Both the position numbers and the translations under genes were made by a program. This document shows, piece by piece, positions 5,009 through 7,124 of a stretch of 25,083 nucleotides of DNA; position 1 is the stretch's first letter; every line of letters begins with the position of its first letter. This stretch comes from a virus. The stretch lies in the IMG/VR virus record IMGVR_UViG_3300030098_002565, positions 22,533-47,615 of that record. The stretch is one strand, 5' to 3'. Under the pieces are notes generated by a model, which saw only the letters and a list, made by a program, of their open reading frames with translations, ran no database searches and was not told the origin of the DNA.

Positions 5009-5049
5009 CCTATAAAAACAAATACTAACGGAGTAGATTTTAGCCCTTT

Positions 5050-5056
5050 GAGGAGG
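5050..5056 (+). promoter_or_regulatory. Orphan Shine-Dalgarno-like GAGGAGG in the capsid leader
   Basis: A near-perfect ribosome site stands 69 bases before the capsid ATG with no ATG behind it. The only start in reach is TTG at 5067 (10 bases on), which would give a 15-residue peptide ending at TAA 5112-5114, eleven bases before the capsid ATG. It could be a leader peptide, a ribosome standby site or chance. Confidence 0.4.
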
Positions 5057-5093
5057 ACAACTCTAATTGAAACTTAGGATAGTTATACAGGCA

Positions 5094-5116
5094 CAATTAA
5101 ACCCCTATAGCTAAAC
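5094..5116 (+). promoter_or_regulatory. Candidate phage RNA polymerase promoter ahead of the capsid gene
   Basis: The sequence AATTAAACCCCTATAG (5095-5110) recalls class III promoters of the T7 group: T3 uses AATTAACCC then CACTAAAGGG, and T7 and SP6 end in CTATAG. It sits exactly where T7 has phi10, just before gene 10. If the start is near G5110, the leader is only about 16 bases and contains the capsid ribosome site AAGG (5118-5121). No convincing second copy of the whole motif was found in the window, and the polymerase gene is not visible, so this is inference. Confidence 0.42.
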
Positions 5117-5125
5117 TAAGGAAAT

Positions 5126-6346
5126 ATGGCTACATATACAGGCACTAATCCAGTATCTGCTAATCCTACTAATTATGTAGGACATAGATCTGGTCAAAAG
5201 AATGCCACAGGTAGTTCAAGAGAACTATTTTTAAAATTGTACGCAGGTGAGGTCATGACTGCCTTCCAGACGAAGAATATCATGATGAATTACACTCGTA
5301 CAAGGACTATCTCGAAAGGGAAGTCAGCACAGTTTATTATGACAGGTAAGTACCGTGATGCTGCCTATCATACCCCAGGAGCAGAGATTGCACCTGTCGC
5401 AAACGCAAAGAATTCTGAGCGTGTCGTGTCAGTAGACGATCTCTTAATTAATGCTCAGTTCATCCCCAATATTGATGAGGCGATGCAACATTATGATGTC
5501 AGATCCATCTATACTCAAGAAGCTGGATATGGACTAAGTAAAGTTGCAGACCAGAACATTCTAAGGATGGCTGTAAAAGCAGCATTAACTACAAATAAGC
5601 AACGTGCATCTAAGTTAGTTCAAGACTATGCATCTTGGGATGACGAAGATTTCACAGCAAACGTAGAGTATGCAGATAATTTAGCTAAGTCGAAGAAAAA
5701 TGCCTTCATGGTAGAAGGCTTGATTGAAGCTAAACGCATCCTCGAAATGGCAGGAGCACCTTTAGAAGATCTTGTCTGTATTATGGCAACCGATCAGTAC
5801 TACAGGTTGTTCATGACTCAGCAAAACAGTGAAGCTATTTCCAATTTAATTGCTTGGAATCGTGACATTGGTGGAACTGGGTCTATCAATAATCTTGATC
5901 TTCCTACTATCGCAGGAATTCCAGTTGTAAGAACTCCACATTTGGGAACTTATGCAGTTGGAGCTTCTGGAGCATGGACTGATTCACTGTGGAGCACTGG
6001 AACAACTACTGGTCCTCAACCTTTAGGATCAGACCATTCCAACCGTGCTGCTCAGTACGACATCCCTGCTGCTTACAGCGGTGATGGAACTGACAGTCAA
6101 ATCGGTGCTGCTGGTGGTCTTGATGCATCAGGTTCTAATAATGTTAACCTACGTACTGAAGCTGAAAAGGTACGTGCGATTGTTATGCATAAAGATGCAG
6201 TTGCAACCGTTAAACTGTTGGATCTCAGTGTTGAATCTGAGTATCAAATCCAACGACAAGGTACGTTGATCGTGAGCAAATATGCGATGGGTCATAACGT
6301 ACTCAGACCTGCTATGGCTGTAGCGTTACACGCACCAAAGTCTTAA
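5126..6346 (+). CDS. gp10: Major capsid protein (T7 gp10A-like, HK97 fold)
   Basis: 406 residues, longer than the 345 of T7 gp10A. It forms the icosahedral shell. Typical segments seen: an N-terminal arm (TGTNPVSANPTNYVGHRSGQ), then LFLKLYAGEVMTAFQTKNIM; the long E-loop region with TISKGKSAQFIMTGKYRDAAYHTPGAEI; VSVDDLLINAQFIPNIDEAM; and near the end AIVMHKDAVATVKLLDLSVE with VSKYAMGHNVLRPAMAVAL. The extra length lies largely at residues about 272-345, a Gly/Ser/Asp-rich stretch likely to be a surface loop. AAGG (5118-5121) lies 4 bases before the ATG. I see no slippery site that would give a T7-style 10B extension. It stands alone between a candidate promoter and a terminator, fitting very high expression. 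Confidence 0.97.
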   Translation: MATYTGTNPVSANPTNYVGHRSGQKNATGSSRELFLKLYAGEVMTAFQTKNIMMNYTRTRTISKGKSAQFIMTGKYRDAAYHTPGAEIAPVANAKNSERVVSVDDLLINAQFIPNIDEAMQHYDVRSIYTQEAGYGLSKVADQNILRMAVKAALTTNKQRASKLVQDYASWDDEDFTANVEYADNLAKSKKNAFMVEGLIEAKRILEMAGAPLEDLVCIMATDQYYRLFMTQQNSEAISNLIAWNRDIGGTGSINNLDLPTIAGIPVVRTPHLGTYAVGASGAWTDSLWSTGTTTGPQPLGSDHSNRAAQYDIPAAYSGDGTDSQIGAAGGLDASGSNNVNLRTEAEKVRAIVMHKDAVATVKLLDLSVESEYQIQRQGTLIVSKYAMGHNVLRPAMAVALHAPKS

Positions 6347-6355
6347 TAGCAGTTT

Positions 6356-6399
6356 AAGGCATCAAGTGTTCGGGCTTGCTCTGCCTTTTTTCTTTTTTT
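6356..6399 (+). terminator. Intrinsic terminator after the capsid gene (Tphi-like)
   Basis: The outer stem AAGGCA (6356-6361) pairs with TGCCTT (6382-6387). The inner stem CAAG (6363-6366) pairs with CTTG (6375-6378) around the loop TGTTCGGG. A T-rich tract runs to 6399, broken only by one C. T7 places its main terminator at the same point, just after gene 10, to raise capsid mRNA over downstream genes. Confidence 0.85.
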
Positions 6400-6464
6400 A
6401 AGGGAGGGTAACTCTGTAGCTCCACCCACCTCCCACACACCTCTCGCTACAGAGTCCCTCCTTT
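6400..6464 (+). other. Long RNA hairpin with G-free, anti-SD-like loop between capsid and tail genes
   Basis: The left arm (6403-6420) and right arm (6446-6461) pair over 16 base pairs (10 + 6), interrupted only by a two-base bulge (TA, 6409-6410). Three weaker pairs (one G-U) could extend the base to 6400/6464. The 25-base loop (6421-6445) contains no G and is C-rich. It includes CACCTCC (6427-6433), identical to the anti-Shine-Dalgarno core of bacterial 16S rRNA. Only three T follow, so it is not a classic terminator. An RNase III site, a 5' stabiliser for the tail mRNA, or a pairing element are possible roles. The rest of the 6347-6485 gap shows nothing else. Confidence 0.75.
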
Positions 6465-6485: not shown

Positions 6486-7124
6486 ATGAGTGTAACCACA
6501 CCTACTACTGAACTAGATGCTGTCAATGTCATGCTGACCAGCATTGGAGAGAGTCCAGTGAACACACTGGGATCTGGTCTTCAAGAAGCTGAAATAGCTG
6601 AAGTGGTCCTTGATAATGTAAGCAGGGATGTACAGTCAGCAGGTTGGCATTTCAACACAGAAATAAGATACACATTAAATCGTAATGTAGTTAACGAAAT
6701 AAACCTACCTGTTAATGTCATAAAAGTAGATAAAACTTCACTTCTAAGAGACTACGAACTTGATGTAGTAGAAAGAGGTAGAAAACTGTATGACCGCATT
6801 GGTAATACCTACACATTTGATAAAGATATAGAAGTTAATATGGTGGTTTTACTGTCATTTGATGAACTGCCAGAAGTAGCACGTAGATACATAACACTAC
6901 GAGCAGCTAGAACCTTCCAACAACGTATACTTGGTAATGATACTTTGTCACAAATGTTGGCAATGGATGAACAGCAAGCGTTCCTTTCTTTACGTGAAGC
7001 TGAAGCAGAAGTTTCTGATTATAACATCTTTGATAACTATGATACTTACCGTGCTTTAGATAGAAACATTAAATCTGCTACTCATACAAATGATAGTATA
7101 GCAATACAACAATTCCCAAGTTAA
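6486..7124 (+). CDS. gp11: Tail tubular protein A / gatekeeper (T7 gp11-like)
   Basis: 212 residues (T7 gp11 has 196). It forms the adaptor ring under the portal and helps retain packaged DNA. The N-terminus has the family signature (ELDAVNVMLTSIGESPVNTL), followed by AEIAEVVLDNVSRDVQSAGW and HFNTEIRYTL. A middle beta-rich part contains LYDRIGNTYTF, and the C-terminal helix pair contains RYITLRAARTFQQRILG. No ribosome site precedes the ATG (upstream bases are AAACTAACT), so initiation probably depends on the A-rich leader. It is the first gene after the capsid terminator and hairpin, so it is read only by transcripts passing them. The next gene follows after 3 bases. Confidence 0.95.
   Translation: MSVTTPTTELDAVNVMLTSIGESPVNTLGSGLQEAEIAEVVLDNVSRDVQSAGWHFNTEIRYTLNRNVVNEINLPVNVIKVDKTSLLRDYELDVVERGRKLYDRIGNTYTFDKDIEVNMVVLLSFDELPEVARRYITLRAARTFQQRILGNDTLSQMLAMDEQQAFLSLREAEAEVSDYNIFDNYDTYRALDRNIKSATHTNDSIAIQQFPS

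Follow-up and report, generated by a model that had tools for sequence, protein, structure and literature searches.

A hairpin at the capsid-tail gene boundary of marine T7-like phages combines a conserved pyrimidine-rich loop with an exchangeable stem

RNase III sites, in the form of long imperfect stems between late genes, are used by T7, and their loop sequence need not be conserved. The boundary between the capsid and tail tubular A genes is also the location of the Tphi terminator of T7 and of the T16 terminator of LUZ100, where the terminator annotated after the capsid gene was termed an apparent strong terminator and an unexplained antisense RNA lies downstream of the same gene (PMC10134795). 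A different kind of precedent is offered by the alpha-r14/cuckoo sRNAs of alphaproteobacteria (the NfeR1 family), in which an ultraconserved unpaired anti-Shine-Dalgarno (anti-SD) pyrimidine motif is carried on stems that differ widely, and which silence mRNAs through these anti-SD seeds (PMC10746234).

The locus considered here lies in a stretch of 25,083 nucleotides (hereafter the window) included in a 47.6-kb virus record. The record represents a T7-like podovirus with a single-subunit RNA polymerase of its own, a T7-type primase-helicase and a T7-type terminase, in addition to an integrase, a ribonucleotide reductase and Fe-S assembly genes, and the phage is a marine T7-like one. The features relevant to the capsid gene and its two borders are the following:

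5009-5125: capsid leader, upstream of the major capsid gene, with a conserved leader hairpin at 5045-5056 within 5043-5061
5126-6346, + strand: major capsid gene (PHROG 267), upstream of the hairpin; a mosaic cassette in group A (see below)
6356-6399, + strand: terminator-like hairpin (AAGGCA...TGCCTT) with a T-rich tail, after the capsid gene
6400-6408, + strand: outer left arm, AAGGGAGGG, pairing with 6456-6464; compensatory changes in L008/L010 and in L009
6409-6410, + strand: 5'-side bulge, TA, separated from the loop by 10 pairs; its length is 1 nt in L008/L010 and 4 nt in L009
6411-6420, + strand: inner left arm, ACTCTGTAGC, pairing with 6446-6455; compensatory changes
6421-6445, + strand: G-free loop of 25 nt, TCCACCCACCTCCCACACACCTCTC, the conserved part; relatives differ by a 2-3 nt indel only
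6446-6455, + strand: inner right arm, GCTACAGAGT, the partner of 6411-6420
6456-6464, + strand: outer right arm, CCCTCCTTT, the partner of 6400-6408 (9 bp including one G-U)
6486-7124, + strand: tail tubular protein A (gp11-like) gene (PHROG 446), downstream of the hairpin

The hairpin at 6400-6464 resembles the T7 RNase III sites in being a long imperfect stem between late genes and differs from them in its conserved loop. It occupies the same place as Tphi and T16; unlike these, it has only UUU past its stem and a long conserved loop, the terminator-like hairpin of the window being a separate structure at 6356-6399. With the alpha-r14/cuckoo sRNAs it shares a conserved loop motif on differing stems, as evidenced by the 13 compensatory pairs described below. 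However, those sRNAs are chromosomal trans-acting RNAs with their own promoter, each with three hairpins bearing CCUCCUCCC, whereas the phage hairpin sits inside a late operon, is a single one and lacks CCUCCUCCC; the neighboring hairpin at 6356-6399 is without a C-rich loop, and the three-hairpin arrangement is not found here. In Rfam nothing reached the gathering threshold and nothing was recovered up to E = 5 in this region of the window, while nine relatives gave a single hit, to a terminator, weak and below threshold, in L002. Our literature search recovered no description of this hairpin. Taken together, a structured RNA displaying a pyrimidine loop is a known type, its position after the capsid gene appears to be new, and the function discussed below is a proposal.

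The hairpin comprises 19 base pairs (10 + 9, with one G-U), a 2-nt bulge and a 25-nt loop devoid of G; the earlier note on this DNA had given the bulge, the loop and the coordinates correctly and had under-counted the stem as 16 base pairs. The loop RNA, UCCACCCACCUCCCACACACCUCUC, contains CCUCC and does not contain CCUCCUCCC, and CACCTCC lies within it at 6427-6433. The 151-nt region folds with z = -4.3, none of 200 shuffled versions folding equally well, and on the + strand the hairpin is the lowest-energy 65-nt segment among those sampled. Pair count by itself is unexceptional and would be no proof, as bulged stems with at least 19 pairs turn up in 11 of 60 shuffled windows. The case for the hairpin rests on comparative evidence.

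Relatives were gathered by searches of IMG/VR with the capsid and gp11 proteins, supplemented by pattern searches. The same hairpin was found at the same place in ten further public contigs, termed group A (L001, L005, L006, L008, L009, L010, L011, L012, L017 and L084). These display three diverged stem types, all of which fold to 17-21 pairs with a 5'-side bulge of 1-4 nt, the loop being 9-10 pairs away. When six distinct sequences were aligned by hand on their structure, compensatory changes were seen in 13 pairs and a one-sided change in one, and no pair was broken. In contrast to the stem, the loop is identical throughout group A but for one indel of 2-3 nt, CACCC[ACC/C/-]TCCC. At fourfold-degenerate sites in both flanking genes, L008, L009 and L010 are only 53-65% identical to the window, and the chance of 22 identical loop positions at 62% identity is about 3e-5 for one such lineage. 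The earlier suggestion that this is a structured RNA whose G-free loop matters is thus upheld by both of the comparisons that it had called for, namely those of the stem and of the loop. The element is almost certainly real and selected through its loop. The above patterns show the stem to be a replaceable scaffold and the C-rich, G-free loop to be under strong purifying selection; as the scaffold is free and the loop frozen, the loop is the active part. Furthermore, each stem type retains 1-3 G-U pairs, and since a G-U pair would be an A-C mismatch on the opposite strand, the sense-strand RNA is the selected molecule.

A 14-mer from the loop matched 74 contig stretches, and the structure was present in the local fold only in the ten group A stretches. 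The element was not found in GTDB genomes, and the only two contigs recovered from cellular genomes, with a capsid ~47-48% identical, have a different post-capsid sequence without the hairpin. One member, L001 (G001), has an insertion of ~80 bases past the hairpin and ahead of gp11, in which a further inverted repeat (CCGTAGG...CCTACGG) and a T run are present.

Where the earlier note had placed a terminator, just ahead of the long hairpin, there is indeed a terminator-like hairpin plus T run, and most hairpin-bearing members have such a terminator-like hairpin upstream. It is gone in L009, L011 and L017, which nevertheless retain a hairpin of the 6400-6464 type; hence, the two structures are independent and the terminator-like one is not a required partner of the long hairpin. 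The long hairpin does not itself have the form of an intrinsic terminator (GC-rich stem, short loop and immediate U run), given its loop of 22-25 nt and its UUUCCC tail, which is UUCUCCC in L008/L010, and a terminator scan did not report it. Some members do have a U run past the stem (TTTTTT in L001 and TTTCTTTT in L009). This run, a small-bulged stem of 17-21 bp that would be compatible with an RNase III site of about two helical turns, and the use of RNase III sites by T7 are what could be adduced for an RNase III processing site, a 5' stabilizer or a second terminator in which the loop is irrelevant. Such a role is improbable as it leaves the frozen loop unexplained: RNase III processing or mRNA stabilization, which had been suggested previously, would not as a sole function freeze a loop. 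The hairpins found at this position in sister lineages are also only ~9-11 bp long and without a U run, and the comparable hairpin of pelagiviruses is conserved in the reverse manner, with the stem kept and the loop free.

The latter hairpin, from HTVC019P and its relatives, served as a control. It has the same position, a long stem and little or no U run, but its stem is nearly fixed and its loop varies, which is the opposite of the pattern seen in group A and indicates that a frozen loop is not a general property of post-capsid hairpins. The sister lineages, however, do possess near-invariant pyrimidine-rich loops on changing stems, although with sequences clearly unlike those of group A. 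Group C, which is 58-70% identical to the window in the capsid and 52-62% in gp11, has two other hairpins at the same spot. In the first of these 10 of 11 pairs are compensatory and none is broken (15 distinct sequences), with the loop UUNAUCCUCUUG, and in the second AGUUCUCCAU is invariant amid changing surroundings (16 distinct sequences). Group B has a nested hairpin at this spot with the conserved stretches UCUCUUCC and CCUUCCUC. A loop motif common to groups A, B and C looked good in a test with a hand-picked motif, but unbiased local alignment gave p values of ~0.1-0.95; it was therefore dropped, the likeness being no more than composition predicts. In L002-L004, in L007 and in more distant relatives, this position is taken by a plain terminator.

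A C-rich composition of this kind might alternatively point to a Rho loading or pause site, with a rut-like loop helping to end or pause transcription past the capsid gene. Although the loop is rich in C and free of G, and the hairpin directly follows the terminator-like hairpin, this is a quite remote prospect, since Rho sites are set by composition over longer stretches and require neither exact conservation of letters nor a stem of this length, and since late transcription is expected to be performed by the phage-encoded T7-type RNA polymerase. The strong terminator after the capsid gene of the T7-like relative LUZ100 (PMC10134795) may be counted on the side of a Rho-related role.

The genes on the two sides of the hairpin have different histories. 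Group A is 90-99% identical to the window in the portal protein and 81-97% in gp11 but only 72-92% in the capsid, whereas L002-L004 and L007, which lack the hairpin, have a capsid 83-87% identical along with a portal protein of ~67% and a gp11 of ~70%. As capsid identity is out of step with that of the portal and gp11, the capsid gene is a cassette that has been exchanged, and the hairpin travels with gp11, which is the best tracker of the hairpin group among the relatives. The mosaic capsid cassette is seen across the window, L002-L004, L007 and L009-L012, with the portal and gp11 genes not exchanged. Such swapping of the capsid gene, together with the four G tracts in the complement of the loop, could be cited for a function at the level of DNA, be it a cruciform, a recombination boundary of the cassette or a template-strand G-quadruplex opposite the loop. 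All of these are highly improbable: stem changes that keep G-U pairs fit an RNA and not a DNA cruciform, at a recombination boundary the sequence of the stem would be conserved too, and the sister-group loops yield no G tracts.

As for the mechanism, we tentatively favor antisense-type, anti-SD-like pairing by the loop, because every group A variant keeps CCUCC (CCTCC in DNA) despite the indel and because the design is like that of the alpha-r14/cuckoo sRNAs. Late transcripts that read through would present the loop RNA in abundance, and in members without the upstream terminator it would be on every capsid transcript. Its CCUCC, CUCC and CCUCUC stretches could base-pair with G-rich Shine-Dalgarno-like sites of other RNAs, probably those of the host, so that the hairpin would act as an antisense or sponge RNA, with the long stem keeping the seed open and protecting it. 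A literal copy of the 16S rRNA 3' end, as which CACCTCC had been read previously, is not what is conserved: this heptamer is absent in L008, L009 and L010, CACCUCC being present only in window-type loops rather than in all homologues as expected of such a mimic, and only the core CCTCC is universal. A more inclusive scenario is speculative and rather unlikely in its entirety. According to it, several related marine T7-like lineages would each have a lineage-specific RNA device at the capsid-tail boundary, an exchangeable stem presenting a frozen loop of pyrimidines, deployed via late transcripts as an antisense decoy against translation start sites of the host or of superinfecting phages.

Several observations count against antisense pairing. 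The terminator upstream of the hairpin in most members would lower the amount of loop RNA, and a conserved target was not found within the phages. Against the phage's own start regions the loop has a mean pairing energy of -8.2 kcal/mol versus -7.8 kcal/mol for shuffled loops, 25% of the shuffles being as good; the strongest candidate, where gene 1798 begins, was not recovered in relatives, and complements of the seed across sister phage genomes gave no recurring target. A pairing switch between the left arm and the loop was also considered and rejected, as the hairpins' own loops perform no better than shuffled or foreign ones.

The main rival to antisense pairing is a protein-bound loop, in which an RNA-binding protein of the phage or host would recognize the single-stranded pyrimidines and thereby control how stable or how well translated the tail transcript is, or the ratio of capsid to tail proteins. 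This explanation, which we regard as possible though somewhat doubtful, is consistent with the failure to find an RNA target in the phage start regions, the relatives and the sister genomes. The kept letters of the loop include A and U besides C, its length is fixed bar the one indel, and a frozen loop on a freely varying stem is typical of protein-bound hairpins. Tail gene A, moreover, starts ~20 nt past the hairpin without a Shine-Dalgarno sequence. On the other hand, no candidate protein came to light, and given the clearly different loops of the sister lineages one common protein would need a relaxed specificity. As the earlier note had pointed out, no Shine-Dalgarno sequence precedes the starts at 6486 and 7128; the significance attached to this is not sustained, as GGAG, GAGG or AGGA occurs near the start in only 23% of the genes here.

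Should the loop pair with host mRNAs or be bound by a protein, marine podoviruses would have post-transcriptional control at the capsid-tail boundary. In either case, an important junction of T7-like phages harbors a structured RNA that is apparently undescribed and whose selected part is the loop rather than the stem. The near independence of stems and loops makes stem swaps or loop mutations easy tests.

The other end of the capsid gene also carries a selected RNA structure. GAGGAGG at 5050-5056, formerly regarded as an orphan Shine-Dalgarno sequence, in fact forms the 3' half of the conserved leader hairpin listed above, whose pattern is CCNN-YGNG-NNGG followed by AYAAY. All 79 distinct sequences of this hairpin are paired, with 14 stem/loop combinations, and it is single-copy in each of the five phage genomes checked. 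All groups have it, as do uvMED S45-C18 and the isolates HTVC019P and HTVC131P; RHEph01 and CRP-118 carry hairpins of similar form. It has no match in Rfam, is apparently undescribed and is possibly more widespread than the post-capsid hairpin. The pairing of the post-capsid loop with GAGGAGG that had been envisaged is not borne out, since the sister groups have GAGGTGG or GCGGAGG without matching changes in their loops.

Some further features of the phage genome may be mentioned. Directly after the integrase lies a partial tRNA-Ser(CGA) (L091:12623-12666, the same positions in the record), comprising the 5' part up to the anticodon stem; this fragment, GGAGAGATGGCCGAGTGGTCGAAGGCGGTAGACTCGAAATC, is conserved in G001 and G002. 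It is likely to be the attP site and as such a handle for finding the host, although a search with it gave no match in two partly overlapping sets of 385 and 398 genomes. The ribonucleotide reductase is split into two ORFs with a gap between them (35-244 and 448-1161, within 35-1161 of the window), for which a frameshift, an intron or a sequence error is a possible reading. An adjacent pair of Fe-S assembly genes, IscA-like (PF01521) and IscU-like (PF01592), is present in this T7-like phage at L091:467-1200. The early region contains promoter-like repeats of the form TTGACA-N17-TGTGAGATAAT (L091:5194-6304, and at 2600, 12742 and 15233), with TGTGAGATAAT present near the RNA polymerase gene too; these look like a host-type promoter with a built-in operator.
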